From: Caldithrix abyssi DSM 13497
GTDB lineage: Bacteria; Calditrichota; Calditrichia; Calditrichales; Calditrichaceae
NCBI RefSeq assembly: GCF_001886815.1
Contig: NZ_CP018099.1
Location: forward strand, 2,726,501-2,790,500
Length of the DNA: 64,000 nt
Direction: 5' to 3'
In this document: in pieces, positions 885 through 56,148 of the stretch
How positions within the stretch are numbered: the stretch's first letter is position 1
Layout of the letters: every line of letters starts with the position of its first letter
The notes under the pieces: model-generated
Told to the model about the DNA's origin: nothing
What the model saw: only the letters and a program-made list of their open reading frames with translations
Database searches by the model: none
Made by a program: the position numbers and the translations under genes

Positions 885-2780
885 ATGAAATTATACATGC
901 AGGTTCTGGGGTTTATCAAACCTTACTGGAAAGGTATTGTTTTAATTATCGTACTGACTTTTTCGTATGTGATATTTAACAATCTTTCCATCTGGATTTC
1001 AATAGACTTTGTGCGCGAATTATTCAGCCCCGCTTACGTGCAACAACAATCCGTTCCGCCGGATAGCGTGCAGGTCGTGTCATCGGCCGATGAATTACAG
1101 GATATCGTTAAAAACAGCCAGGGCATCTACCAGAAACTCAATAGCAAAATAAAATCGTTTATTATCCGCAAAGACCGCCTCGAAACTCTGAAAATCGTCT
1201 GTCTGGTAATATTTCTGGCCTTTTTAATGAAGAACGTTTCACAATACAGCCGCAAATTGCTACTGATTTTTATTCAGGCGCGGGTGGTTGTGGATATCCG
1301 CAACAAGTTGCAACGCAAGTTTTTGCATTTACCGCTGTCATTTTTTCACCAGCACCACAGCGGCACGTTGACTTCCATCGTGTTCAACGATGTAAACGCC
1401 ATACAGCAGGTGTTAAATCAGAGTTTTGGCAAGATTATTCTCTCGCCGCTGCAAATTATCGCCAATATTATCATCCTGTTGATGATCAGCGTAAAGCTTT
1501 CGCTCATTACCTTTATCATATTACCGATTAGTTTTTTTGTCATTTACAAAATCGGTCAAAGCATCCGTCGTCGAAGCCGACGAGTTTTCCAGCAGGTGGC
1601 CGATGTGGTGCTGGCATTTCAGGAATCCATTTCGGCCATTAACATCGTTAAAATTTTTACCAGCGAAAAACGGGAAGAAGAACGCTTTAAGAAAACCAAT
1701 TTTCAATATTTCCAGAAACTGTTCCGCGCCGAACGCATTAAAATTGCCACCACGCCCATTAACGAGATTTTGCTGGTGCTTACCCTGGTCACCCTACTGT
1801 GGATCGGCGGAAGAATGGTCTATCAGAACGAAGGTTTACAGCCCGAAGATTTTGTGCGCTTTTTGGTGTTTTTGTTTGCCATGTTCAAACCGATTCAGGA
1901 ATTTTCGGGCATTAACAACGTGATGCAGACCGGCCTGGCTGCCGCCGAACGCGTCTTTAACGTTCTGGATCAACCGGAAGAGACCTACGATGCCCCTGAT
2001 GCCATCGAGCTAAAAGAATTTAAAAAAGAGATCAAATACGATCACGTCTATTTCAAATATAACAACGAAGACGAATTTGAATTGCAGGACCTGCATTTTA
2101 CCATTAAAAAAGGAGAAACCGTGGCCTTTGTCGGTCACAGCGGCGCAGGCAAAACAACCATCGTCGATTTACTGCCCCGCTTTTATCCTGTCTCTGCCGG
2201 TCGAATAACCATCGATGGGATCGATATCAATCGGATAAAACTGTTCTCCTTACGAAAGCTGATTGGACTGGTTAGCCAGGAGACCGTGCTTTTCAACGAC
2301 ACCATTCGCGGCAACATCGCCTACGGCCATCCCGACGCGTCGGAAGAAGCGATTATCAAGGCAGCCAAAGCGGCCAACGCCTGGGATTTTATTCAACAAT
2401 CCGAATTGGGGCTGGATACGCATATCGGCGAACGCGGCGTTAAGCTTTCCGGCGGACAGAAGCAACGGCTGGCCATCGCCCGCGCCATCCTCAAAAATCC
2501 GCCCATCTTAATTTTAGACGAAGCGACCTCTGCCCTGGACACCGAATCGGAACGGCTGGTGCAGGAGGCGCTGGATCATTTAATGCAAAGTAGAACCGTG
2601 CTGGTCATCGCCCATCGTCTCTCCACTATTCGTAACGCCAACAAAATCATCGTCATGCACCACGGAAAAATCGACGCGATCGGCACGCATACGGAACTCT
2701 ACGAAAAAAGCAGCATTTACCGTACATTGTACGAAAACCAATTATTGATCGGGGAGATAAAGAAAAAACCCGCATCATAA
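885..2780 (+). CDS. MsbA-like ABC exporter (fused permease and ATPase)
   Basis: 631 residues: an N-terminal six-helix ABC exporter domain (about 1-340) and a C-terminal nucleotide-binding domain. Visible motifs are Walker A GHSGAGKTT, Q-loop LVSQETVLF, signature LSGGQKQR, Walker B ILILDEATSALD and the H-loop AHRLST. It belongs to the lipid A/multidrug half-transporter group that works as a homodimer in the inner membrane. Between the first two helices (about residues 48-100) there is an unusually long polar segment rich in Gln, Ser and Lys, longer than the short loop usual in MsbA. The start ATG follows an AAGGAA-type ribosome site. The next gene begins 10 bases after the stop, so the two are probably co-transcribed. 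Lipid A transport is inferred from family and context, not shown. Confidence 0.88.
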   Translation: MKLYMQVLGFIKPYWKGIVLIIVLTFSYVIFNNLSIWISIDFVRELFSPAYVQQQSVPPDSVQVVSSADELQDIVKNSQGIYQKLNSKIKSFIIRKDRLETLKIVCLVIFLAFLMKNVSQYSRKLLLIFIQARVVVDIRNKLQRKFLHLPLSFFHQHHSGTLTSIVFNDVNAIQQVLNQSFGKIILSPLQIIANIIILLMISVKLSLITFIILPISFFVIYKIGQSIRRRSRRVFQQVADVVLAFQESISAINIVKIFTSEKREEERFKKTNFQYFQKLFRAERIKIATTPINEILLVLTLVTLLWIGGRMVYQNEGLQPEDFVRFLVFLFAMFKPIQEFSGINNVMQTGLAAAERVFNVLDQPEETYDAPDAIELKEFKKEIKYDHVYFKYNNEDEFELQDLHFTIKKGETVAFVGHSGAGKTTIVDLLPRFYPVSAGRITIDGIDINRIKLFSLRKLIGLVSQETVLFNDTIRGNIAYGHPDASEEAIIKAAKAANAWDFIQQSELGLDTHIGERGVKLSGGQKQRLAIARAILKNPPILILDEATSALDTESERLVQEALDHLMQSRTVLVIAHRLSTIRNANKIIVMHHGKIDAIGTHTELYEKSSIYRTLYENQLLIGEIKKKPAS

Positions 2781-9674: not shown

Positions 9675-12600
9675 CTACCTCACGATCACTAACTTTCCTG
9701 TTTTTTGATGCTTACCGTAGATGATCCGGTAAAAATACACGCCGCTGCTCGCTCTTTTTCCGGATGCATCGCGTAAATCCCAGCGAATGCCGCCATACTC
9801 ATTTACCTGCTCCAGGGTTCTAATCAGCAGGCCATGCATATTAAAAATTTGAATTTGAGCTTTTTGCGGTAATTTTGCAAATATTAATGCTTCATCCTGC
9901 GGGCGCACCGGCTGCGGATAGATGATAACACGCGACAAATCATCCTCCGGTCGGAAGAGGCTAAATTTCTGCCGTTCTGCCATCTCGACGCCCCAGCGAT
10001 TTTTCACCCCGTAAATTTCCAGATATGCCGCCTGACCAAAGCCACCGGCAGGCGCCTCTTTGGTGAGTGTTAGCTCTACCTCGCTGGCTAAGGCGTTCAA
10101 AACGGTCACCTCGCTTACAGAACCGGCGGGAAACAACTGATAATGACTCAACTGCTGAACGCTCCCCGAATCCATTGGTTGCGAAAAGGTTACGACAATC
10201 GTAGTGCGCGTCACAATGTTCAACTTTGTCACACGTGGCGCCTCGATCGGCGCCGCCAGATCAAGCGCAGACCAATCATACCGCCGGTCGATGGGCATAT
10301 CCTGCGCATTGAAGACATTTTCCACCTTCAAAGTGTCTTCTGTGAAGTCTGAATCCCGCAAATCATCAAAAATAACCAGCAATGAATGGCCCGGCGGAAT
10401 GAGCACGATGGAACTGGCTGCAATGCGAGCGGCTTCCAAAAATATGCGGGGCGGCTGGTCTGCCTTCAATTTTAAAGACTGATCAAATTGCAGAATAAAA
10501 GCCGTTTTTCCCACGCGCTGCACACTTAACAGACGGGGCGGGCGCCCAGTGCTTGCCGAATCGATGTTCGACCACTCGCTCTCCAGAGAATCAGCGACGG
10601 CAGTAACCGCATAAAAGTATGTTTCTTGCAGCGTCAGGTTTTGATCTAAGAAGACGTTTTGCGAAACATGCCGGTAAAATTGGAGACTTTGGGCGCTGAG
10701 ACCGCGGTAAAGATTAAAGCCATTGTAATTCTGGCCCTGCCATTCGATCTTAATACGCGCGCTGTCTAGCGGCGAAGCGTTTAAGCCAAAGGGCACGCTC
10801 AGCGCCTCCCCTTCCCCTTTAAAAAATCCGACGATCTTTTCGCCCGTATTAAAATAACATTCGAAATTTTGACTGGAGGGCGATTCACCAGCCACAATGG
10901 CGTTGGAACGACAGCTTTCGGTTTGCCAGACGACGGCCCATCGTCCTTCTATTTTTTCCAGAACAAAAAACGAGGGGGAAAGAGCAAGAAAAAGATATTG
11001 TCGGCCGTTGTATTCCGAAAAGCGCATGCCGGCGTCAAAGGTTTTTTTGAGAGAATAGGGATAAAAATGGATGATCTGGCTGGATTTCAATTCCCTCCAG
11101 CGCGCATCATAAGTAAAAATTTCCAGCGACCAGTAAAGCTGGGCCAGCTCGGATTCGAATCGCCTGCCCTCTTCTGTGTGACTGAGAACAAACAGAGCGT
11201 CGCCGCCGGCTTCTATTAAATCGGTGGCATCGGTCTGATACGTGTGCAACAATTGCAAAAGGTGGAACTGGTCGGCGCCCGAGCAGGAGTAAATATTGAG
11301 ATCGCCGTCATAATCGCCAAATACCAGTTCATTATTTCCATCGCCATTAAAATCGTGAACCACAACTTTTGGAGAGCCAAACCGATTTTCGCCCTTGCTG
11401 TGATTTATCAGCCTGGCAATTGGTAAAAATTGAAAATTCCCCTGATCTTCCAGCGCCACATAGGCCGAATCCCGATAACCGATGATTTCTGCCTTGCCGT
11501 TTTTGTTGCAATCGGTTAATGCGGCAGCCCAGAAACCCGAATCCTGCCAGACGATGCGAAATGTTTTGAGGCCAGAATCAAATTTCAGTAAGCGCGCCTG
11601 ACTTCCATAAGTCACCAACAACTCTTCACGGCCATCGCCATCCATGTCAAAGGCATCGCGAGGTATGGCCTTCTGGCTGAATTCGGCGATCTGTTCAAAG
11701 CCCTGCGGCGTATCTTCCCAGACTTTTAAATAACCAATGGCCCCGCTACTGGCGTATTCGCTTAAAACGATCTCTCGCTGTCCGTTTCGGTTAATATCCG
11801 TGAATTTGTGCAGAAGATAGCCAGCCGGCAGGGTGTGCTTGAGCGGCCTCCATGGATGCCACTGTCGATCGGCGAAAAAGATTTCCGGAACGTTTAGCGT
11901 GGTGTCTGCGATCAATCCGCCGTCATTCTTCACTTGAATTTTTAGCAAGTTATAATCTGCGATTTGACGGCTGGTAAACGTTAAAAAATGTTCGGAAAAG
12001 AGGTTAAGATCAACCAGACTATCCGCAGAAACGCTGCCTGAAGAATGCAAAAAAGTAACATGGGCGGTGGTTTGATCATCGGTAATAAGGTGCAATAAAC
12101 CGACAATTTCTGCCTGCTGAAAGGCGGGATCCAGTGTTAGTTTTAAAATACGCGGAGGCGTCCGATCAACATGTATTGAAGTAAGATCAAAAACCGACGT
12201 CTGATTTAATAGTTGCATTTGCAGTCGAATGGTCAGCACGGTATCCGGAATGTGATTGATGGGCAAAAGCGCCAGAGTATCGTGGTAAAAATAGCGGTAG
12301 TCCCATTTTCCCAGGGCGAACCATCGTTCTGGTTTGCTGCCAAGGCCATATTCCAGCAGCACGGACTGCAGATCCGGATGGTAAGCGCTGCCGACGATGA
12401 AAAGCGAATCTTTGACAGGCGTATTTTCTGTGGGGCTGATAATTTGCAGCGCGCCGCCATGTTGAATGAGCAGCGCCTTACCGGCGTCCAATCTTCCGGA
12501 GCCGACCTGCCATTGAGGATTGGGCAGGTTTTGTTCGGCGGAGTTTTTTAAAACGGTGCGCAGCTCTTCGTTGCTTAAATCCGGCCTGGCCGAAAGCAAC

Positions 12601-13703
12601 AGAGCGCAAACGCCGGCCGCCATCGGGGCGCTAAAAGAAGTTCCGCTCACAGTGCGGTATTTGTTACCCGGCGCGGTGCTGATGATTTCCGCTCCCGGAG
12701 CGATTAGATCGAGCCCCGGCCCAAAATTAGAAAAAGCGCTTAGATGATCTTGCCGGTCGCAACTACCGACGGCAATGGTTTCTTTAAAAGCAGCCGGATA
12801 ATAAATCTGCGGTTGTCCTTCGTTGCCTGCAGCGGCCACAAAGGTGATGCCCTTTTCCCAGAGGAAACGTAGCACATCTCTAAAAAGGGTGGACACCTTA
12901 ACATCGCCAAAGCTCATGTTGATGATTTTTGCCCCTTTGGAATAAGCATAAAGCATGGCCTGAATGACATCATCCTCTTCCAGATAGCCAGCAGCCGTTC
13001 CAGCGCGCAGATTCATGATTTTGATTTGCGGTGCAATACCGGCAATGCCTTTCAGGTTGTTGACCGTGGCGCCGATAATGCCGGCAATCTCTGTTCCGTG
13101 ACCGCCCAAAAATTCATCCATGGGATCCGGATCCGGGGTCAGGTAGTCTCCGCCGTCGGCAAAACGCGGAGCGTCGGTAAAATCCCAACCCATCACATCG
13201 TCGATCAAACCATTGCCGTCGTCATCCACGCCCGGCAAACCCTGTCGTTCAATTTCATTAATCCAGAGAACCTCCTGCAAATCCGGATGCGTGTAATCGA
13301 TGCCCGTATCGATGACGGCCAGCAATACATCGGGGGCCCCGCGCGTTACCTGCCAGGCTTGTTCAATGTTAATTTGTTCAAGATACCATTGTTCGGCAGA
13401 CAGGCTGTCGTTGGTCAGGGGGAATATTTTAAAGCGACGCACCGGTTCAAACGTTTCGATCCAATTTTCCTCTTGCAGCTCATGCAATTTCTGCGAATCG
13501 GCTTCCACCACAAGCCAGCGATCAACGAGCGGCAGCGGCTTAGAATAGGTTTGAAAGGTTTTGTAAGAAATACCGGCTGGTTTGAGCAAATTATTGCGCT
13601 TTAATTGCTCCTGCCCTGTTGCAGTTAATTTAGCAAAATAGACGTCTGCGGCGGAAAGCGAATGCAGATAGAAAAAAAAGAAGATTAAAAATATCGGCTT
13701 CAT
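9675..13703 (-). CDS. Secreted S8 (subtilisin-like) protease with repeat region and T9SS/FlgD-type tail
   Basis: 1,342 residues. A signal peptide (IFLIFFFFYLHSLSAADVYF) is followed by a propeptide and the S8 catalytic domain with D132 (AVIDTGIDYTHPDL), H202 (GGHGTEIAGI), oxyanion N294 (AAAGNEG) and S356 (SGTSFSAPMAAG). The middle has FG-GAP/VCBS-like calcium-loop repeats (DINRNGQREI, DMDGDGREEL, DCNKNGKAEI, DFNGDGNNEL). A fibronectin III-like stretch (KIEWQGQNYNGFNLYRG) follows. The last ~90 residues, with IIYPQPVRP, IQIFNMHGLLIRTL and SSGVYFYRI, are the type-A sorting/FlgD Ig-like tail of proteins exported by type IX secretion. Its ATG overlaps the TPR stop as TAATG. Likely extracellular or surface-bound. 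Confidence 0.93.
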   Translation of the reverse strand: MKPIFLIFFFFYLHSLSAADVYFAKLTATGQEQLKRNNLLKPAGISYKTFQTYSKPLPLVDRWLVVEADSQKLHELQEENWIETFEPVRRFKIFPLTNDSLSAEQWYLEQINIEQAWQVTRGAPDVLLAVIDTGIDYTHPDLQEVLWINEIERQGLPGVDDDGNGLIDDVMGWDFTDAPRFADGGDYLTPDPDPMDEFLGGHGTEIAGIIGATVNNLKGIAGIAPQIKIMNLRAGTAAGYLEEDDVIQAMLYAYSKGAKIINMSFGDVKVSTLFRDVLRFLWEKGITFVAAAGNEGQPQIYYPAAFKETIAVGSCDRQDHLSAFSNFGPGLDLIAPGAEIISTAPGNKYRTVSGTSFSAPMAAGVCALLLSARPDLSNEELRTVLKNSAEQNLPNPQWQVGSGRLDAGKALLIQHGGALQIISPTENTPVKDSLFIVGSAYHPDLQSVLLEYGLGSKPERWFALGKWDYRYFYHDTLALLPINHIPDTVLTIRLQMQLLNQTSVFDLTSIHVDRTPPRILKLTLDPAFQQAEIVGLLHLITDDQTTAHVTFLHSSGSVSADSLVDLNLFSEHFLTFTSRQIADYNLLKIQVKNDGGLIADTTLNVPEIFFADRQWHPWRPLKHTLPAGYLLHKFTDINRNGQREIVLSEYASSGAIGYLKVWEDTPQGFEQIAEFSQKAIPRDAFDMDGDGREELLVTYGSQARLLKFDSGLKTFRIVWQDSGFWAAALTDCNKNGKAEIIGYRDSAYVALEDQGNFQFLPIARLINHSKGENRFGSPKVVVHDFNGDGNNELVFGDYDGDLNIYSCSGADQFHLLQLLHTYQTDATDLIEAGGDALFVLSHTEEGRRFESELAQLYWSLEIFTYDARWRELKSSQIIHFYPYSLKKTFDAGMRFSEYNGRQYLFLALSPSFFVLEKIEGRWAVVWQTESCRSNAIVAGESPSSQNFECYFNTGEKIVGFFKGEGEALSVPFGLNASPLDSARIKIEWQGQNYNGFNLYRGLSAQSLQFYRHVSQNVFLDQNLTLQETYFYAVTAVADSLESEWSNIDSASTGRPPRLLSVQRVGKTAFILQFDQSLKLKADQPPRIFLEAARIAASSIVLIPPGHSLLVIFDDLRDSDFTEDTLKVENVFNAQDMPIDRRYDWSALDLAAPIEAPRVTKLNIVTRTTIVVTFSQPMDSGSVQQLSHYQLFPAGSVSEVTVLNALASEVELTLTKEAPAGGFGQAAYLEIYGVKNRWGVEMAERQKFSLFRPEDDLSRVIIYPQPVRPQDEALIFAKLPQKAQIQIFNMHGLLIRTLEQVNEYGGIRWDLRDASGKRASSGVYFYRIIYGKHQKTGKLVIVR

Positions 13704-45475: not shown

Positions 45476-46021
45476 CTATTTCTTTTTTGGCGTAGGATGC
45501 GCTATTTTAGCGGAAAATTCTTTATAATTAAAAGGTTTATGGAAAGGATTTTGCTCGTTGTGGCAGGTTACGCACACTTTCTCCTCAGGCAAAACCAGGC
45601 CATTAGCCAGAGCCTTTTCGCGATCTTTCATGATGCTCAACTTTTTATAAACGCTTCCCGGGCCGTGGCAGGATTCGCAGGAAACGCCTTCTTCCATGGT
45701 CAGTTTACCTTTGGGATCGATCAAAGCTTTGTCAACAGCGGCCATGGTGGCATGGCATTTAGTACACTTGGGATCGGTTGAAGGATCGGCAATGCCATGT
45801 TCTTTAGCGTATTTTAAAGAGGCTTCGCTTTTCAGTGATTCCATGGCTTTGGCATGCGGGCCATTTTTCCAGATGGTGTATTGTTTGCCGCTCTTTTTCG
45901 TATTGTGGCAGGTTTTACATTTAGCGGCGCCCACATACTTAAAATCTTTGGCATAACTAAACGAGCCCAGAACACCGACAGCCAGAATCAGCGTTAGTAG
46001 AAATTGAAAGGATCTTCTCAT
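45476..46021 (-). CDS. Tetraheme c-type cytochrome (cytochrome c554-like)
   Basis: 181 residues from the ATG at 46021, which has GGGGATAGGA upstream; the open frame extends 18 codons further without a ribosome site. A signal peptide (FQFLLTLILAVGVLGSFSYA) precedes four CXXCH motifs: CKTCHN, CTKCHA, CESCHG and CVTCHN. The pattern AAKCKTCHNTKKSGKQYTIW and EGVSCESCHGPGS matches the cytochrome c554 fold of periplasmic electron carriers. It may shuttle electrons between the quinone pool or hydrogenase and terminal reductases (inference). Confidence 0.9.
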   Translation of the reverse strand: MRRSFQFLLTLILAVGVLGSFSYAKDFKYVGAAKCKTCHNTKKSGKQYTIWKNGPHAKAMESLKSEASLKYAKEHGIADPSTDPKCTKCHATMAAVDKALIDPKGKLTMEEGVSCESCHGPGSVYKKLSIMKDREKALANGLVLPEEKVCVTCHNEQNPFHKPFNYKEFSAKIAHPTPKKK

Positions 46022-46110
46022 AATCCTATCCCCTAAGTTTGGTTTAACATTTAAAAGCCATACTAAATTAATCAATTAAACATTATATTTCAACCTATAT
46101 TTTCATTATT

Positions 46111-46339
46111 CTGAATGTCCCCCAAATTTTTTAAGATTACAATATTTTTTCTAAAATCATTTTTACAACTCACCCCCTAATCATATAATTACTAACACGT
46201 TAGGCATGCTCTTATCCCCCTCTCTTTGCAAAAAGAGAGGGGGAATAAGGGGGTGAGTTTTTCATACATTCAGCTATTGTATTCCCTTAAATATCAATCG
46301 ATTATAAGGTCTTTGTTTGAAATTTTGGGGGACATTCAG
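46111..46339. repeat. Complete 229-bp MITE with 14-bp target duplication
   Basis: CTGAATGTCCCCCAAA at the left end is the perfect complement of the right end. The sequence ATATTTTCATTATT occurs directly on both sides (46097-46110 and 46340-46353), a 14-bp target duplication. The interior has nested hairpins: outer AACTCACCCCCT/AGGGGGTGAGTT and inner CCCCCTCTCTTT/AAAGAGAGGGGG. No coding frame exists. A truncated inverted relative is at 7713-7879. Confidence 0.88.
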
Positions 46340-46395
46340 ATATTTTCATTATTTTCTTTTTTTGATTTTTAGTAGGCAGCATGGCGCGTTTATAG

Positions 46396-46690
46396 GGGAA
46401 AGGTTTAGAGATAGTTTTTGAACCTTGATTAATATGATTAAAGGATTAACTTGATTTTTTATTTGTGAAAGTTTACACTCAATTTTAACGCGAAATTTTT
46501 TAGTTACAAAAAGCAAATCTTGGAAATCCCGAAATCAAGTAAATCATGGTTCAAAATTGATTGGTCGCCGCCCTGGCATTCCTAATTGGCCAGCGCGGAA
46601 ATCACTTACACTGTTAGAAATAATCTTCCACGCTCAGCCTCCATCTCTCCCAGACTCTTTTTCTTGGAAAGGGGGTGAGGGCAATTGAAA
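46396..46690 (+). repeat. Diverged copy of repeat R2
   Basis: Contains the ordered R2 blocks GAACCTTGATTAATATGATT, GGAAATCCCGAAATCAAGTA, CATGGTTCAAAATTGATTGG and a degenerate CCCAGACTC hairpin. Confidence 0.7.
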
Positions 46691-46980
46691 CTATTTTTAA
46701 TTTAAAACATTCTTTGAGCCCTTTGTGACTTCTCTGTGCGCTCTGTGGTTGCCTAAATTCCTGCGGAAAAGTTTTTGGCGGCGGCTATGCTGTAATAGCG
46801 TTAAAAATTATCACGCGGAGCGGGAGGCTGTGCCCGAATTATGAATTACGAATAGTAGAGTGCTGGTTTGCTTAATTTTCGTCTTAAATGTTAAATCATT
46901 TTCTGCGATGATTGGCGTAATCTACGAGAAAATTACTTTGCGCGCGTTGCGGTTGATTTTGGTTGTGGCTGTGCGGCCTT
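46690..46980 (+). repeat. Dispersed repeat R1, near-complete copy
   Basis: Aligns with the reverse complement of 7105-7396 along its whole length. It ends directly at the 3' end of the surface-repeat gene. In both places an R1 copy lies a few hundred bases from a CTGAATGTCCCCC element in the same relative order. Confidence 0.75.
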
Positions 46981-46982
46981 TG

Positions 46983-48092
46983 CTATTTGAAGTTAAAATT
47001 AACAAGCGGCAGGGCGCGCAGCCAGCGGGGATTATTCTCGGCATAATTAATAAGCCCGATTTGAACGCCTTTTAGATGGCGGGCATAGTTCAGGACGCCC
47101 AGGGTAATGCCAACTTGCGTTCCTTTATTCCAGTTAATTGCAGAAAGCCCCAGCCCTTTAAATTGCCCTGCTTCCTTAATTTTAATCATGCCGCCGGCAA
47201 TTGTAATCCCTCGGACATTTTCAGCGCCGACCATTATTCCGGCAACGCTCAAGCCTTCGATATTTTTTGCGCCAAGGCCAAAGCCGGCAACATTTAACCA
47301 GCGCAAACGCTCCGTGGCGCCCAAACCAATTCCGGCCACGCTAACGCCTTCAATGGAATGCCCCGCGCCAATACCGAACACAGCCGCCTGAAATCCTTTA
47401 ATGGTTTTGCCGGCGCCGATACCGAAACCGGCCAGCGTAACGCCGCTTACACTTTCACCGGCGCCCAAACCAAATCCTGCAACGTGAAGCCCCTTAACTG
47501 ATTTTCCGGCTCCCGTTCCAAAACCAGAAATCGAAATGCCTTTTAAAGATTCACCGGCGCCTATGCCAAATCCGCTCACACACAGCCCGCTTACTGAGCC
47601 GGCGGCGCCAAGCCCAAAACCTGCCACAGCCAGCCCGTTTACGCTTTCGCCAGCAGCCAACCCCAGCCCGGCCACCGATAGACCGGAAACGCTTTTTCCG
47701 CTACCAATGCCAAGACCGCCGATGTTCAACCCTTTTATCTGACCGCCAGAGCCAACGCCCAGAGCGCCCAGATTGATGCCTGCCATGCTTTTGTGTGCGG
47801 AAACGCCGACTAAGCCTGCCTGCAAGCCGTACAACGCTCCGGCCTCTGGCATTATCAGCCCCAATGAAATACCCTTAACAATAGCCCGCTCATTATCTGC
47901 GGCGCGCCACAATGTAATATTAATGCCGTTTATTTTTTCGACCTGCCGATCGCTCCAGTTGATGCGTAATCCGGTGAATTCTTTGGAATTACCAATACTG
48001 ATGCCAAACCGTGAAGTAGGTAGATCGATCGATTGGGCCGAAAGGGAAAAAGAAAAAGCCACAAAAAGCAGTAAAGTAGCGATTCTGTTCAT
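46983..48092 (-). CDS. Surface protein with tandem 16-residue glycine-rich repeats (LA_2272-like)
   Basis: 369 residues from the ATG at 48092, which follows TGGAGG; the frame extends nine codons further across that site. A signal peptide (IATLLLFVAFSFSLSAQS) is followed by at least ten repeats of 16 residues with the form GLxVAGFGIGAGESVK, for example GLHVAGFGLGAGESVS and GVTLAGFGIGAGKTIK. The end reads GVQIGLINYAENNP, typical of the LA_2272 surface-repeat family. The regular Gly/hydrophobic alternation suggests a beta solenoid or outer-membrane strands. Function unknown. Confidence 0.85.
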   Translation of the reverse strand: MNRIATLLLFVAFSFSLSAQSIDLPTSRFGISIGNSKEFTGLRINWSDRQVEKINGINITLWRAADNERAIVKGISLGLIMPEAGALYGLQAGLVGVSAHKSMAGINLGALGVGSGGQIKGLNIGGLGIGSGKSVSGLSVAGLGLAAGESVNGLAVAGFGLGAAGSVSGLCVSGFGIGAGESLKGISISGFGTGAGKSVKGLHVAGFGLGAGESVSGVTLAGFGIGAGKTIKGFQAAVFGIGAGHSIEGVSVAGIGLGATERLRWLNVAGFGLGAKNIEGLSVAGIMVGAENVRGITIAGGMIKIKEAGQFKGLGLSAINWNKGTQVGITLGVLNYARHLKGVQIGLINYAENNPRWLRALPLVNFNFK

Positions 48093-48477
48093 TGCGTATC
48101 CTCCACAAAATAAAGTCATTCTTGCAAGTAATTACGAAATTGAATGAAAAAAGTTACCATTTCAATCAAAAACTTTTAAACCATTCATGCAAAATGTAGT
48201 TGTAAGCCGCGCAAAGAGAACACAAATCATGTTACAATTTAAACATTCTGCTTTACATCGTTAGATAAAGACCGACCGCGGTTAGATGTCCCGGGCCTGT
48301 TCCCAAAGATGGCGTAGATGAAAAATAATCAAAAAAATTCATCTTAAATTATTGTTCACTTGAGTTCAAAATAGAAAGATTGGGAGAGCCGGAGCTAAGC
48401 TAAACGGTGAATCTGCGACTGTTGATTGAATAGCGTCCGGCGCGAAGCCTATTCGCTTTAAAGGTAATATATCAATT
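48093..48477. other. Intergenic region downstream of hicA
   Basis: 385 bases without a gene. It contains the leader of the surface-repeat gene, two GTTAGAT heptamers near 48261 and 48281, and repeat A (separate entry). Confidence 0.6.
48351..48455. repeat. ~104-bp direct repeat, copy A, behind hicA
   Basis: Matches 49372-49475 with only a few differences, including TTCAAAATAGAAAGATTGGG, AGCTAAGCTAAACGGTGAA and TGCGACTGTTGATTGAATAG. It lies immediately 3' of hicA. Confidence 0.85.
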
Positions 48478-48702
48478 TTACAGAAGTTTCTTAAATTCTT
48501 CAACAGTCAATCCAACTTGTTTTATGATCTTCCGTAAGGTACCTTTCGCAATTTCGTGATGATCTGGAACAACAACTCGTCTATGAGGATACGCAATCTG
48601 TCGCAAAACTATATGACTGCCTTTCTGTCTGTCTCTTTCATAACCAATCTTTGACAACGCTGCCACCACATCACGTCCTGATATTCGAGGAAGTGTACTC
48701 AC
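48478..48702 (-). CDS. hicA: HicA toxin (mRNA interferase)
   Basis: 74 residues, the usual size. HicA has a double-stranded-RNA-binding fold whose catalytic His is in RQKGSHIVLRQ; RVVVPDHHEIAKGTLRKIIK is the other family signature. It cleaves mRNA and tmRNA when free of its antitoxin. The gene follows hicB with a 4-base overlap, the reverse of the most common hicA-hicB order but well known. The frame is intact. Confidence 0.92.
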   Translation of the reverse strand: MSTLPRISGRDVVAALSKIGYERDRQKGSHIVLRQIAYPHRRVVVPDHHEIAKGTLRKIIKQVGLTVEEFKKLL

Positions 48703-48911
48703 ACGACCACCTCTACAATTTCTTCATCTATGGAGGGTGGAATAGGTTCATTGTGTGCCTTCAGGCTTTCAATATAAACTGCTATTGCCTCTTGAATATT
48801 TTTTAAAGCCTCTGCACGTGTTATTCCTTGAGAAATACAACCTGGCAGAGAAGGTACCTCTGCCACAAACACTCCATCTTCATCTTGTTCAATAATAACT
48901 CGATATTTCAT
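48699..48911 (-). CDS. hicB: HicB antitoxin
   Basis: 70 residues with the HicB core YRVIIEQDEDGVFVAEVPSL and PGCISQGITRAEALKNIQEA, a degenerate RNase H-like fold that binds HicA. It lacks a long C-terminal DNA-binding domain, so autoregulation may be weak or rely on the complex. GGAGGC precedes the ATG. An attC-like hairpin ends about 40 bases upstream of the start. Confidence 0.92.
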   Translation of the reverse strand: MKYRVIIEQDEDGVFVAEVPSLPGCISQGITRAEALKNIQEAIAVYIESLKAHNEPIPPSIDEEIVEVVV

Positions 48912-48950
48912 GACCGCCTCCTAATTAATTATGATTGCCGAACGGCGGGC

Positions 48951-49027
48951 GCCTAACCTGATTTGCCACGATTAAATAATTTTAAAAATACCAGAAAATC
49001 GAACGCGTGGCAAACTTAGTGTTGACG
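48951..49027 (-). repeat. attC-like recombination-site hairpin (tentative)
   Basis: Read on the minus strand, CGTCAAC, a 6-base spacer and TTTGCCACG are matched by CGTGGCAAA, a 4-base spacer and GTTAGGC. The 9-bp arms are perfect, the loop is 35 bases, and the outer AAC/GTT pair with unpaired bases between. GTTAGGC fits the integron R-box consensus GTTRRRY. CGTCAAC misses one position of its partner consensus. No integrase is in the window. Confidence 0.45.
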
Positions 49028-49371
49028 CCCTTGTTGAACTAAGCCCCGCAGGCATAGCAACTTTTATATGGCATATTTTCGCATTAGTTCGCCCGCCTCA
49101 AGACAAATCATTACCGATCATTCTTAGCCTGAAAAGAAGTTAATAAAATTTTTTCCTGCAACAAAATGGAACATCACAAGGTCTGCATGAAAGACTTTTT
49201 TAAATAGAGATGAGTTCAGTATAAAAACCACGAATTTCACGAATGGACACGAATATATTTTATGTAATTTAAATAAAAACAATAGGCCCATTTAAATGAA
49301 TTTGGATAACAATACCTTTTTAGAGTGGACTCAGAGATGATCAGAAATCCCAGAAACAAACAGTCCTAAGA

Positions 49372-49475
49372 TATTGTCCCCTTGAGTTCAAAATAGAAAG
49401 ATTGGGAGAGCCAGAGCTAAGCTAAACGGTGAACCTGCGACTGTTGATTGAATAGCGTCCAGCGCGAAGCTTATT
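49372..49475. repeat. ~104-bp direct repeat, copy B, behind the Avs-like gene
   Basis: Direct copy of 48351-48455, 1,021 bases away, located 43 bases 3' of the Avs-like stop codon, the same relative position that copy A has to hicA. Confidence 0.85.
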
Positions 49476-49517
49476 TGTTGGGCCTGTTCGTGTAAATCTA
49501 AGGCCTTTTGTTTTCCG

Positions 49518-52500
49518 TTATTCAAGGTGTAATGGTCCCTTGTTTTCGTCGTAGTCATCAAAGAAAACCATATCACAAAACTCTATAGTCCCATCCTCTT
49601 TCAAACGAGCAATTTGACTGAATGTACACTGTGGAGTAGGTTTAGAATGAACACCGCCTATAATGATCTTTTCGCCAAGGAGCGTCCAAATAATATTGAG
49701 ACCAAGCTTTTTCAGTCGGATGATAAGGTCGTCAAAATCAACAATCAGTGAACGTGGGCCCTCTTGCGTGAGGGAAGGGTCGCGGAATATTGTCCGCCCG
49801 TTTATGAGACGATAGCCGGCCTGCCCATTCCACCACAGGTCTCCTGGCTCGAAAAAAATACGGGCGGGGACCAAGAAATATCGGTTTTCAGGGAATGAAA
49901 CATCGTACTCCCATTCAGCAGCGATTTCGTTCCATGTTGGCATACACTCGAAAGGTAGTTTATGCTCAGAACCTCCAAGACCATGCCATTCTTCTGGTTC
50001 TGTATTAAATGGTGTGGCCCATGGATATTCCCCCGCAAACCCATAGAGCCACATTGCTCCTTCAGGCATCCATTTTCCGAAGAAATTACGCTTGCGCAAA
50101 GCGACGAAGGCTCTCTCCGCTTGTTCTTTCGGCACCAAATAGCCCGCAAGGTGAATCCATACTCGCCTATAGAGAGCATCAAAATCGTCGTCTTCTTTTC
50201 GGTTATCCCATGAAGGATAAGCCACAAGCAATTGCCATCTTTGACTAGCGTATTCAAAGCTTTGCAACAAATCCTCAAGTCGTGGGACATCTTCTTCTAA
50301 ATTTACCCAGGCTTCATCCTCAAGGTGTTCACTAACTTGAAGGTTAACCGATGTTCTTATCCACCATATATTGGCGTTACGTTTACTAGCAGCTATCTTA
50401 AGTGGTAATGTTGGATCCATTTTGCGTTCTTCCAACAGGATCAACGGTGTTCGAAGTGGTTCAGGTTCCCAACTGTCTCGTCGTCTCTCGACATTATCAT
50501 GAAGTCGCGACGCTAGCTGGTACATGGCAATCCATTGATACTTCTTACCGATTCTTTCCGCCCATACAGGCTTAGCTCTACCACCCCCATATTTACTGAG
50601 CATGTAGTGGTCATAGTTTTCACAGCCGGAATCCGCATAGCCAAAATCACGGGCAATGCGCTGGAGAATCCATTTTCCCATGTCAGTTTTAGACACAGCG
50701 TGTTTCCAGGGTCGAAGACACTCCATTGAGTACTTAAAGAAATCACTAAGAAATTCATTAGGCCAGAAGTGAACGAGTTTGCTCCATTTTTCTACTTGCT
50801 CTTCTGGCGGGATCTCCAACGGCCATTCCGATGATATGGGCTGGGTGGTAATTAATGCTGGATCGTATCCTCCAGATAACACGCCCAATTGGTCAGCAAG
50901 TTCACCTATACATCTAATGTGATCACGTATCAGCGCATTATTGAACGCTGCTGGGTTATCCTGAAAAGCGTGGTATGTCTCCTTTATAACGTCTTTAATT
51001 GCCCCCGCATCACGAGTTAATATAAGTGCTCCATAGCAACTCAGCAAAGCCCTCTCCCGTATTGTATCGTCATCACAATAGAGGAAGCGTGTCAAGACAC
51101 CCGGAATGATTTCTGGCTTATGCACAAAAAGGGCTACAAGTGCACGGGTTGCCCAGTCTTTGACTCGTCGATCGGCCGCCGCAGTAAACCACACAAGAAG
51201 TGTGGACCAACGCTCTGCGATCTCAATTTCTATGTCACTCAACGGCAGTTCGAAGGCGGCATCAATCAGTCGCTTAACCACACCAGCAGATTCATACTGT
51301 TCATGCAAATAACCACACCAGTAAGCGTCTCGCTTGGCCATAGGCTTCGCCCTTAAAAGAGTATCCACCCAAAAGGCATCAATGCGGGATGGTTGCCACG
51401 CCACTGATAAGACGGAATCCATAGTTGCGTATGACATATCCCCTTGGGCTAGCCCCTCAAGAACTAAGTGTTCGGTAGCCGAGGAAAAGGTTTCTGGATG
51501 ACGCCAGACTAATGAGTTTATGGTGACTTTCAGCAATTCGGTGCGAATAATGTCGTCATCTACCAAGTCAGGTAGTTCAACCCCCGGATGCTTCTCCGGA
51601 ATAAGGATAGAAAGAACACTGAGCAATCCACTATTCATAGAGATTGCTTTCAAATCTTTCACTAAGAAACTTAGAGATCCTTCGGGATGGAATGCTCGTT
51701 CAATCTGATTGGATGGAACCTTGGATAGTAGTTCGTCTGCTATGAGAAAATCCCCCAGCCTCTCGAATGCCGGGCGGACAGTACCCTCTTCGCCCAAGGG
51801 ATCTGGAGTGTCAGGAGCATCTTCAATGAGCAGGCCGTGACCTATCAGCCATTCGAGGACAGGTAAGTTATTCGTTTGAGGGCGTTCTGTTGCGATCACC
51901 TTTAGAGCATCCGACCAACGAATTGCAGAATTGCCTGAATCGGCGATTGCACGGCTGATCGCTTGGAGACTGCCACCTACTATATTGGCTTGAGGGCTTG
52001 TCTCGTGTTCAATTACAAATTGTTTTTCCTTCTCCTCAATAAAAGCACGAATGACCGGAACAAGACCGTGCCAACCTGTGGGGAGGCGATCCAGGCCGCG
52101 GCCGCGCAACGTTTCGCACACAAGTCTCAAATACAATGGGTTTTTCAGTTCAGGTTGCAGAATGGGCGTTATTGGTGGTTTTAGTCCATAGAATTCAAAA
52201 AATTTTTGGCAGGCGTATCGTTCAATTCCTTCAAATCCCCGGTACTCAACTCTTGGTACACAAAACCCATCAGGTAAACAATATGGAACGTAAGGCGTTC
52301 TGCACGTGATACAAAGTCGCAAGTAAGGTCGGGTTTGGACGGCATGTACTATCTCTGCTAGATGATTTCGCCAATATTGCAGCGGGTGTGTCTCATTGAT
52401 CGCATCAATGCAAAGCATGAGAGGATAGCCAGATGCCTCGACCGCAGAATTTAGCGCGTCAAGCAGTCCCTCTTTACCCAAAGTGATGGAAAGTCCAAGG

Positions 52501-53753
52501 CTCTCCAAGAAACGTGACCATGGATCGGGCTCCCCTCCGAATTGGTGGCCAAGAAATACACATGTGAGGAGTCCATCTTGCAGTCGGGCAAAAGCTACAT
52601 CACAAACACCATGGGTCTTCCCCACTCCTGCCTCGCCAGTAAGCACGAAGGCCCGATTATAAGCCAAGAACCCTTCAGGAGATTGAAGCCACTCTTGAAA
52701 ATCTCGGAACACTTTGATAGCATTACGTAAGTCATCAAGATTGGCGGTCGGGAAGGAAACCATATATTCAGCCATAAATTGACGGAATCCAGGTGCGTCA
52801 ATCCTTCCTTTCCAATCTGGATATTTGGCCTCCAGATATTCAATCAACAATGGTTCGAGCGATTCCAAATTCTCCAAGATTTCATCCAGTTGCTGGATAC
52901 ACCGAGAATAGATTTCAGATCTATCCGTTTTTTCTAATGAATCGCATGTGCTAAGAAAGGTCTCTATCCTTTTTAGCAAGGAATGAGCGTGCTCTCGTAA
53001 ATTTTCAGGCCATGCTGGCGACAATCCATCTGACCCTGTCCTTTCGACGCTAACAGCCAGTTTTTTGAAAGCATCTTGACACGCTTTCAAGTTATTATTG
53101 AGCTGTTGCAAGAAGACCGGAGTACGTCCAAAGGCTGCAAACCACCTGTAGAGATCTGTCTCTACATTCAATTCCGGGTTATAGCGAGGCCCTGCACTGG
53201 CTTTAACCGACTCGAGGTGGTTCCAAAACCATTCTTCCGTGAGGACAGTCTTGTCGAAGAAATAGATGCGCAGTCCCCCTGACACATCTAAGTTCAACAG
53301 CAGGGATCTGATCTTTGAAGCTGGCCAGGCTTCAATGGTCAGATCACGGCCTGTTGCAATGGCTTCGCTTTCACGCTTATTCCGCCATTCTTCAAATTTT
53401 CCCTGACCGCTTCGGCCCTGCCTCCCTGTGGAGCCAGTAAGATCAAACGGGAAACAGACAATGTAATGAGTCAAGGTGGGATGAATTTGTAAGGCTGTAG
53501 CTAGTGACGAGTCAAGTTGGCGAATCAAGGAGTTCACATCAAAAACGAATTTAGCTTGCCATCCTATTCTAGTCCCATCAGGCAGGTCAGCAAAACATTC
53601 AACTCCACCATCTCCGCCTGCTCCATAAAGACGCACATAATTCGCGTCTTTTGGAAGAGAACGACGCGCTAATTGGCAGCAGAGCTCTTCAAATGATTCA
53701 CGCTTACCGCCAAGACGCGGGGCTATTTGTTGAAAATCAAAATCCTGCATCAT
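49518..53753 (-). CDS. Avs-like STAND NTPase with N-terminal PD-(D/E)XK nuclease
   Basis: 1,411 residues. The N-terminus has a restriction-endonuclease-like domain: FEELCCQLARR, then GAGGDGGVECF (D48, E52) and IGWQAKF (Q66, K68), the Mrr/Cap4 pattern. A linker with PRYNPELNVETDLYRWFAAF follows, as in Avs proteins. The STAND/NACHT ATPase has a P-loop TGEAGVGKT (ending at T380) and Walker B LMLCIDAINE (D450). The remaining ~850 residues are helical repeats rich in Trp and Leu, the presumed sensor. Known Avs proteins bind phage terminase or portal, oligomerise and switch on the nuclease. No signal or membrane segment. Neighbour HicBA supports a defence region. The phage target is unknown, and assignment to a numbered Avs type is not attempted. 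Confidence 0.82.
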   Translation of the reverse strand: MMQDFDFQQIAPRLGGKRESFEELCCQLARRSLPKDANYVRLYGAGGDGGVECFADLPDGTRIGWQAKFVFDVNSLIRQLDSSLATALQIHPTLTHYIVCFPFDLTGSTGRQGRSGQGKFEEWRNKRESEAIATGRDLTIEAWPASKIRSLLLNLDVSGGLRIYFFDKTVLTEEWFWNHLESVKASAGPRYNPELNVETDLYRWFAAFGRTPVFLQQLNNNLKACQDAFKKLAVSVERTGSDGLSPAWPENLREHAHSLLKRIETFLSTCDSLEKTDRSEIYSRCIQQLDEILENLESLEPLLIEYLEAKYPDWKGRIDAPGFRQFMAEYMVSFPTANLDDLRNAIKVFRDFQEWLQSPEGFLAYNRAFVLTGEAGVGKTHGVCDVAFARLQDGLLTCVFLGHQFGGEPDPWSRFLESLGLSITLGKEGLLDALNSAVEASGYPLMLCIDAINETHPLQYWRNHLAEIVHAVQTRPYLRLCITCRTPYVPYCLPDGFCVPRVEYRGFEGIERYACQKFFEFYGLKPPITPILQPELKNPLYLRLVCETLRGRGLDRLPTGWHGLVPVIRAFIEEKEKQFVIEHETSPQANIVGGSLQAISRAIADSGNSAIRWSDALKVIATERPQTNNLPVLEWLIGHGLLIEDAPDTPDPLGEEGTVRPAFERLGDFLIADELLSKVPSNQIERAFHPEGSLSFLVKDLKAISMNSGLLSVLSILIPEKHPGVELPDLVDDDIIRTELLKVTINSLVWRHPETFSSATEHLVLEGLAQGDMSYATMDSVLSVAWQPSRIDAFWVDTLLRAKPMAKRDAYWCGYLHEQYESAGVVKRLIDAAFELPLSDIEIEIAERWSTLLVWFTAAADRRVKDWATRALVALFVHKPEIIPGVLTRFLYCDDDTIRERALLSCYGALILTRDAGAIKDVIKETYHAFQDNPAAFNNALIRDHIRCIGELADQLGVLSGGYDPALITTQPISSEWPLEIPPEEQVEKWSKLVHFWPNEFLSDFFKYSMECLRPWKHAVSKTDMGKWILQRIARDFGYADSGCENYDHYMLSKYGGGRAKPVWAERIGKKYQWIAMYQLASRLHDNVERRRDSWEPEPLRTPLILLEERKMDPTLPLKIAASKRNANIWWIRTSVNLQVSEHLEDEAWVNLEEDVPRLEDLLQSFEYASQRWQLLVAYPSWDNRKEDDDFDALYRRVWIHLAGYLVPKEQAERAFVALRKRNFFGKWMPEGAMWLYGFAGEYPWATPFNTEPEEWHGLGGSEHKLPFECMPTWNEIAAEWEYDVSFPENRYFLVPARIFFEPGDLWWNGQAGYRLINGRTIFRDPSLTQEGPRSLIVDFDDLIIRLKKLGLNIIWTLLGEKIIIGGVHSKPTPQCTFSQIARLKEDGTIEFCDMVFFDDYDENKGPLHLE

Positions 53754-54027
53754 CGTTTATTGTTTCTCCCACAGCGTTAAGGAAAGGCCCAACATCCTTC
53801 GCTCACAAGCACCGTGTAATCCATTTATTTTCCAAACGTTAACTGGTTACTTCACTGAGAAAAATAAACTTCCAAACAAGGCTAATGTATTCGCGACAAT
53901 TTTGAATAAAATTATATAAGAATAAATCGTATTCAAGTCAAGGAGCAAAACGCAGCAGTTGTTTTTTCAATGCACTCCCTCCCTGCTTTTTTAACGGCTG
54001 ATCAAAAGGGCTCTACGATCGCAAACA

Positions 54028-56148
54028 TTAAATTAGGTTCCACTTTTTGCGTAAACTCCATTCCAGGGTGATTAAAGTAAGAATCAAAATCAACAGCCCC
54101 AGTTTGTACCACAGTTCCACTTCTTTTTTTTGACGGACGTACTGCTGTTTTCCGCTGACAATCTGTTGAACTGCGTTAAGAGAATCGGCCGGAATCATTC
54201 GTCCGTTGTTAATTAAGGCTAACTTCTTTAAAAAGAGCGTATCCGGTTTCAATTGAATCAACTCTTTATTGACGGGAATGATGATGAGGCTGGTGGAATC
54301 GCTGCCCCAGAATTCATTTTGTTGAAAACCGCGGGCTATAATTTTGTAATTGCCTTCGCGCACAGGAATAAACTCGGCGCTGAAATGACCGGCCTGGTCT
54401 TTTTGCACGGGCAGATTAAACGATTGATCTTCACCTTTCACCATTAGCGCCGCAGTTCCATCCTGAATGCTTTGCCCGCGACTATCTACCAACTGTATTT
54501 CAAGTTGAAATTTCTGACCGATGTTTCCTCTTTTTCGATCCACTTTTAAAAGCACCGGTTTAAACGGCGTCCGTTTACTTAACCAGCCGACTATTTTTTC
54601 AATAAAAACGGTATATCCGGCAGCCAGCCTCTCGTCGGGCTGCAACAAAAAGTGCCAGCGCCACAAGCCCAGGCCATTGATTACGACTGCTTTTAACTTT
54701 GTTTCGGATAAAAAAATGAGCGGAACGGCGCGTCCTCTTAAAATGGACTGGATCAAAAGCACATCTTTAGGCCCTGTTTGCAGGTTGGGATAAAAACTTT
54801 GGAGGGGAGGTACCATGCTCCAGAATTGTTGATTGCGGGCGCTCTCTTCAAACAAATTCAAAAAAGTTGCCGCCCCGGGAGAATTCACGGTAATCGGCGT
54901 TAACTCCCTTGCCGCCGATAATGGAGAAAAATTAAACCTTAAAAATTGACCGAAAATTTTTCGAAATCTTGAATTTGAAAACTGGCCGCCCGGCATAAGC
55001 AGGACATTCTGACGCGTTGTTTCCCAGCTCTTTCTTAATTGATCGATCAAAATTCCGGACGTATTTTTGCCGGGAAAATCGACAAATATCCATACATCCA
55101 TGCTGTCCAGATTCTGAAAGGCATCTTTAACAATAAATTTCCCGCGATTGTTTTCCACAAAGGTAAATGTTTTAAAGCGCGGAAATTTTTCAATGGCTAA
55201 TTTCAGGAATTTCAGATCATAGTTGGGATAAGCCGTAAAAAGCCCGACATTTTTACGCGATTTAAGGACTTCCTGTACAACATGAAAACGGTTGTTGGCG
55301 GTGTTTGCCTCCCCTTTTACCCGCTCAATTTCAAAGGTTAAATGATGTAGCCCAAGTTTATCTAATTTGTAGCTAAGCGGAACGCTATACCTACCGTTAC
55401 CCGGAGTTAACGTAATTCTTTTTTGAGCGAGCAATTTATTATCCATTTTGACTGTTAAAATAAGCGAAACAGCCTTCTTTAAATGTTCCGCTCCGATGAC
55501 GATATCTGCCTTAACCTCTTCGTTTCGGTAAACGGATGCAGGACTTTTAACCTCGCTGATAAAAACATCCGTCTGGCTTTGCGCCCTGCCCACGACCACG
55601 GTAAACACCTGGCTGCCTATTTTACGTGTTAGCGAGGGGATACGTCCTTCGGTAACCACGCCGTCGCTAACGATGATGGCCCTGTCCGGTTTCTGCTTTC
55701 GTATGGCATTGAACACTGCCTGAAAGTTGGTGGCCCCTTCCGATGGTTTAAGGCTGTCTGGATGGCTGAGCGGTTGGACGCTGGCATTGAAAGTAAACCA
55801 TTTGATCTCACTGGCTGGTTTTTTACTGACCAGGGCCTGCGCCACCTTTTCAACGCTTTCCCATCGCATCTTATCGCCGTCTTTTACGTTCATGGAGCGC
55901 GAATTGTCAAAAAAAACGGCGATTTTTTCAGCTTTTTCCTTCACAAAAATCAATTTGACCGCCGGCGTAAAAAAGATTAAAAAGAGTAAAAAGAAGACCA
56001 GGGCGCGCAGCATGAGCAAAACCCACCGCGCATATTCGGGGATGGGCGGATTGGTTTTTCTGTAAAAAAAATAGCTGACGGCAAAAGCCGCCGCAGCTGT
56101 AAGCAGCACAACAATAAAAGGAATATTAAATTGGATTAGTTCAGGCAT
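54028..56148 (-). CDS. Membrane-anchored von Willebrand factor A domain protein
   Basis: 706 residues. Two N-terminal membrane helices (IPFIVVLLTAAAAFAVSYFF and LLMLRALVFFLLFLIFF) lead to a VWA domain with the metal site DNSRSM and a later ATNFQAVFNAI and AIIVSDGVVTEG. The middle is a beta-rich periplasmic region, and a last helix (LGLLILILTLITLEWSL) lies at the C-terminus. The layout resembles BatA/B-type and glutamine amidotransferase-like VWA membrane proteins of FCB bacteria. Function unknown; protein interaction through the metal site is likely. It follows tsaD by about 80 bases on the same strand. Confidence 0.8.
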   Translation of the reverse strand: MPELIQFNIPFIVVLLTAAAAFAVSYFFYRKTNPPIPEYARWVLLMLRALVFFLLFLIFFTPAVKLIFVKEKAEKIAVFFDNSRSMNVKDGDKMRWESVEKVAQALVSKKPASEIKWFTFNASVQPLSHPDSLKPSEGATNFQAVFNAIRKQKPDRAIIVSDGVVTEGRIPSLTRKIGSQVFTVVVGRAQSQTDVFISEVKSPASVYRNEEVKADIVIGAEHLKKAVSLILTVKMDNKLLAQKRITLTPGNGRYSVPLSYKLDKLGLHHLTFEIERVKGEANTANNRFHVVQEVLKSRKNVGLFTAYPNYDLKFLKLAIEKFPRFKTFTFVENNRGKFIVKDAFQNLDSMDVWIFVDFPGKNTSGILIDQLRKSWETTRQNVLLMPGGQFSNSRFRKIFGQFLRFNFSPLSAARELTPITVNSPGAATFLNLFEESARNQQFWSMVPPLQSFYPNLQTGPKDVLLIQSILRGRAVPLIFLSETKLKAVVINGLGLWRWHFLLQPDERLAAGYTVFIEKIVGWLSKRTPFKPVLLKVDRKRGNIGQKFQLEIQLVDSRGQSIQDGTAALMVKGEDQSFNLPVQKDQAGHFSAEFIPVREGNYKIIARGFQQNEFWGSDSTSLIIIPVNKELIQLKPDTLFLKKLALINNGRMIPADSLNAVQQIVSGKQQYVRQKKEVELWYKLGLLILILTLITLEWSLRKKWNLI

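Follow-up and report, generated by a model that had tools for sequence, protein, structure and literature searches.

In a window of 64,000 nucleotides from Caldithrix abyssi DSM 13497 (contig NZ_CP018099.1, positions 2,726,501 to 2,790,500), an avs2-like gene occupies a single intact ORF that begins with ATG and has no internal stop codon. The gene shares an accessory insertion with a HicBA-type toxin-antitoxin pair (Table 1). In a genome of the same genus (L026), the flanking genes, which encode a VWA-like protein and a glycine-repeat protein, are adjacent and 221 bp apart, whereas here they are separated by 5908 bp.

Table 1. Positions of the features of the insertion in the 64,000-nucleotide window; residue numbers refer to the Avs2-like protein
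Feature	Position	Strand	Basis or remark
Accessory insertion, 5908 bp	48120..54027		flanks 221 bp apart in same-genus genome
Direct repeat of 137 nt, on the far side of hicBA	48317..48453	-	85% identical pair
hicA-like toxin gene	48478..48702	-	PF07927, E 4e-18; same insertion as avs2
hicB-like antitoxin gene	48699..48911	-	PF15919, E 4e-12; same insertion as avs2
Direct repeat of 137 nt, lying between avs2 and hicBA	49339..49475	-	85% identical to other copy
avs2-like gene, 1411 aa	49518..53753	-	intact ORF; PADLOC, NCBIfam and PDB matches
Likely N-terminal PD-(D/E)XK (Mrr-like) nuclease domain, residues 1-165	53259..53753	-	motif, 8dgf profile match, predicted core, weak fold hits
Helical linker, residues 166-345	52719..53258	-	alignment and structure model
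STAND NTPase core, residues 346-560	52074..52718	-	Pfam, alignment, fold hits to STAND/NLR/Avs3 structures
Walker A GEAGVGKTH, residues 373-381	52611..52637	-	alignment
Walker B LMLCIDAINE, residues 445-454	52392..52421	-	alignment
Helical region after NTPase and helical sensor part, about residues 561-1090	50484..52073	-	9o4e match, model
ERIGKKYQ, conserved Avs2-family sensor motif, residues 1066-1073	50535..50558	-	alignment
C-terminal sensor part, about residues 1091-1411	49521..50483	-	predicted mixed alpha/beta, low confidence; 9o4e match

The HicBA pair sits between the two direct repeats. A search of the genome with a 121-nt repeat query returned only the two copies in the window, and a stretch with 78% similarity was seen at L056 4413-4540 (G000:C1 near 1112412). 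The G+C content of the gene is about 45-49%, like that of its surroundings. No Rfam family was found in 46000-54200, and a simple consensus detected no sigma-70-like promoter upstream.

Upstream of hicB, on the minus strand, a strong hairpin (48947-49030, z -3.1) carries GTTAGGC and has an attC-like look. Together with the adjoining 49068-49325, it matches G000:C1:1112577-1113132, which overlaps an integron-integrase-like fragment, and a repeat within it (49210-49325) shares 93% identity with the DNA that immediately precedes the strong IntI-like gene of the genome. The hairpin and the stretch beside it are possibly integron debris. An integron-integrase-like gene at L057 (G000:C1:4864876-4865817) scores over the cut-off of TIGR02249 with 464 bits; it contains one in-frame TGA, is apparently broken, and has transposase genes and the gene of a large protein of ATPase type in its vicinity.

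Two further observations concern the rest of the window. The minus strand of 46983-48119 encodes a secreted-looking protein of 378 aa, made of glycine-rich repeats of ~20 residues (VxGLxVAGFGxGAG...), which had no Pfam match and is kept in the congener at 61%. Two more PADLOC matches, both partial, are to mad3 (E 1e-33, 89 residues only) and to a subtilase model, at 885-2780 (+) and 9675-13703 (-); these are probably general domains and not defence systems.

Assignment to the Avs2 family

All six Avs2 models of PADLOC (PDLC02161-02166) matched the protein, with E-values from 6e-122 to 2.8e-290; the best of them spans residues 3-1017 and another spans residues 4-1368. The PADLOC models of Avs1, Avs3, Avs4 and Avs5 gave no match to the protein at E<=10. 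Among solved structures, the best match in a sequence search of the PDB was the Avs2 structure 9o4e (E 4.1e-99, residues 171-990 and 1036-1367), and a family profile built from the query and 14 relatives matched 9o4e at 1344 bits over 16-1466 of 1474 positions. E-values of 2.8e-290 for PADLOC Avs2 and 4e-99 for the PDB Avs2 exclude a chance match. Across the family, 15 of 15 members of alignment A1 match all six PADLOC Avs2 models, and two of the 15 carry an avs2 annotation in their records. The Pfam matches were weak (NPHP3_N 0.0023, NACHT 0.23), so that the protein can pass for an orphan; it is the PADLOC and PDB comparisons that resolve its identity.

The NCBIfam Avs2 model NF041813 also matched (E 1.3e-202), but its score of 676 bits falls short of the 1000 bits set as the threshold for naming an equivalog. 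We therefore call the protein a divergent member of the Avs2 clade and not an equivalog, and functional equivalence with characterised Avs2 is not assured. Taken together, the profile and structure-sequence matches indicate that the gene product is a divergent Avs2 (AVAST type 2) protein, which adds a member to an already known family.

A sequence-only reading of this locus had proposed an Avs-like nuclease-STAND defence protein in an accessory region, and both the Avs2 matches and the empty site in the congener bear this out. The same reading had raised the possibility of a new lineage in this phylum, whose sensor might recognise another viral fold. This finds no support, since the STAND domain and the sensor both match the known Avs2 family and the nearest relative, 62% identical, is a planctomycete protein. 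A new Avs type was likewise considered and rejected, because both the NTPase and the sensor match Avs2 by PADLOC, PDB and family profile.

NTPase and sensor

The motifs that had been named from the letters of the DNA were all located in the protein: GGDGGVE at residues 46-52, QAK at 66-68, and the two Walker motifs of Table 1. Walker A and B, R485, GF506-507 and, with small variations, ERIGKKYQ are kept across 19 aligned proteins. The whole sensor aligns with Avs2, and ERIGKKYQ is present in most members of the alignment; identity of the sensor to the 9o4e-like Avs2 is only about 25%.

A model of residues 340-1411 (mean pLDDT 68) is helical to about residue 1087, with confidence dropping near the helical end; for the last ~240 residues (about 1166-1409) it gives, at low confidence, a mixed alpha/beta structure with many strands. 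The earlier description of ~850 C-terminal residues as helical repeats does not seem to fit this last part. A fold search with the NTPase-sensor model matched NLRC4, one further STAND protein, Avs3 in complex with phage terminase (8dgc, E 3e-4) and, lower, an AVAST5 filament. The global TM-scores were low, and these predicted-fold hits support the kind of protein and not its ligand.

N-terminal domain

The N-terminal domain is likely a PD-(D/E)XK-type nuclease, mainly on the strength of its motif and of a match to Avs4. The candidate catalytic residues E22, D48, E52, Q66 and K68 are retained in 14 of the 19 aligned proteins. Of the other five, L034 and the 9o4e-like L042 carry a different N-terminal domain, L037 and L044 as annotated or predicted lack residues in this part, and L045 retains all except D48. 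The N-terminus of the family profile matches the Avs4 chain 8dgf over the first hundred residues of the latter (whole-sequence E 1.7e-7, domain i-Evalue 1.6e-5). Phmmer with the N-terminal domain by itself found nothing useful in the PDB.

An AlphaFold2 model of the N-terminus, made from four sequences and, like the NTPase-sensor model, of moderate confidence (mean pLDDT 72), has an a-b-b-b-a-b core in which strand 53-56 begins directly after GGDGGVE and strand 62-67 runs into QAK. Foldseek gave no hit to this model at E<=0.001. The ten top matches, all at E>0.001, include Can2 (twice), EndoMS, EcoT38I and VRR_NUC, and these five of ten we take to be PD-(D/E)XK nucleases. The nuclease pattern proposed earlier for the N-terminus is upheld by the located motifs and the 8dgf profile match, and the predicted topology would agree with it.

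Relatives and acquisition of the gene

The closest relative is a protein from a Planctomycetaceae MAG (L002, WFWZ01000420.1), which is 62% identical over its full length and lies on a very short contig that gives no context. The next relative (L017, 46% identity) comes from a genome within the phylum of that MAG; matches were present in 8 of 392 genomes of this phylum, and only two are strong over the full length. More distant relatives, with 23-29% identity, are encoded by plasmids of Rhodothermus, Burkholderia, Acetobacter, Vibrio, Moraxella, Caulobacter, Rhizobium and haloarchaea. Viral contigs scanned with single proteins gave no close relative, and an alignment query gave five loci, among them L042, which looks nearly identical to the 9o4e Avs2 in the parts compared by eye.

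A tree of the NTPase and sensor places the query with the planctomycete protein (SH-aLRT 97), L017 (100) and, on a long branch, a Burkholderia glumae plasmid protein (99). These four proteins have in common a linker insertion before the NTPase, FRQFMAEYMVSFP / FRQFMAEYMVSFPTANLD and variants. The tree contained no reference sequences of Avs1, Avs3 or Avs4, so that the profile and structure-sequence matches are the grounds for the Avs2 assignment.

A search of 39 other genomes of the Caldithrix phylum gave no avs2 match. This sole copy among 40 argues against a lineage specific to the phylum, and judging from this distribution the gene was probably acquired horizontally. The empty arrangement is seen in one congener, and since every other genome searched in the phylum lacks avs2, a gain here is favoured over a loss in the congener.

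Proposed mode of action

Avs1-4 recognise phage terminase or portal and then act by nuclease activity on the phage and host genomes (PMC12931631). Avs2 senses via its C-terminal domain and undergoes ATP-dependent oligomerisation, and for one Klebsiella Avs2 the large terminase is a binding partner and Ksap1 appears to be another (PMC12724215). Because the C. abyssi protein has the same NTPase and sensor as Avs2 together with an intact DNase-type effector, the same action is the most likely one by analogy with characterised Avs2. In the resting cell the protein would be inactive. On infection, its C-terminal sensor would make direct contact with a conserved protein of the phage, for which the large terminase subunit is the most likely candidate; the STAND core would then bind ATP and drive oligomerisation, and the clustered N-terminal PD-(D/E)XK domains would degrade both phage and host DNA. 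The infected cell would stop growing or die ahead of phage release, which would amount to abortive infection. We consider it quite probable that the locus encodes, beside HicBA, a divergent and probably horizontally acquired Avs2 anti-phage receptor that acts through this chain from sensor to oligomerisation to nuclease.

Alternatively, with the same architecture and Avs2 ancestry, the sensor of the insertion-bearing subclade could have come to recognise some other phage protein in place of the large terminase. The score below the NCBIfam Avs2 equivalog cut-off leaves room for a different trigger, though no sign of one was seen. Such a switch would fit the separate subclade (SH-aLRT 99) that the query, the planctomycete protein, L017 and the B. 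glumae protein form, as well as the apparent binding of Ksap1 by a Klebsiella Avs2. Yet the entire sensor still aligns with Avs2 and most members keep ERIGKKYQ, and we consider the switch unlikely. That the gene is a decayed, non-functional avs2 is more doubtful still. The repeats and the possible integrase-associated debris in the adjoining spacer could be taken as signs of decay, but the frame is full-length and free of stops, the NTPase and nuclease motifs are all intact, and the protein aligns over its full length with a 62% identical relative. STAND proteins generally have varied roles, and this one could serve in regulation or in a cell death unrelated to phage, but every strong family match is to Avs2 defence models, and the accessory, patchy distribution and the plasmid-borne relatives fit defence, so that such a role is the most improbable of all.

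As an Avs2 defence protein, the gene product places Avs2 in a phylum where the other searched genomes have none, and does so paired with a DNase-type effector. Its origin in a thermophile means that it may be stable and so lend itself to structural studies of Avs2 carrying an effector of this type. By itself, the protein raises no new question on bacterial immunity.

Comparison with known Avs proteins

The likeness to Avs2, as represented by 9o4e, NF041813 and PDLC02161-02166, extends through the STAND NTPase and the entire C-terminal sensor, with the same conserved motifs. Identity is about 25-30%; the N-terminal domain of 9o4e differs and is without the GGDGGVE/QAK nuclease motif, and the query has the linker insertion that is common only to its subclade. 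The annotated Avs2 of the Rhodothermus marinus plasmid pRMAR01 has the same nuclease-linker-STAND-sensor order and the PD-(D/E)XK motif; it is 28-29% identical to the query and differs by a longer sensor insertion in pRMAR01. The Planctomycetaceae protein, by far nearer at 62% over the full length, is functionally unannotated in the collection used. Avs4 (8dgf) has a related N-terminal nuclease domain, whereas its STAND and sensor match weakly or not at all. The likeness to Avs3 in complex with terminase (8dgc) is at the level of the fold of the NTPase-sensor model, and the PDB sequence search gave no match to it.
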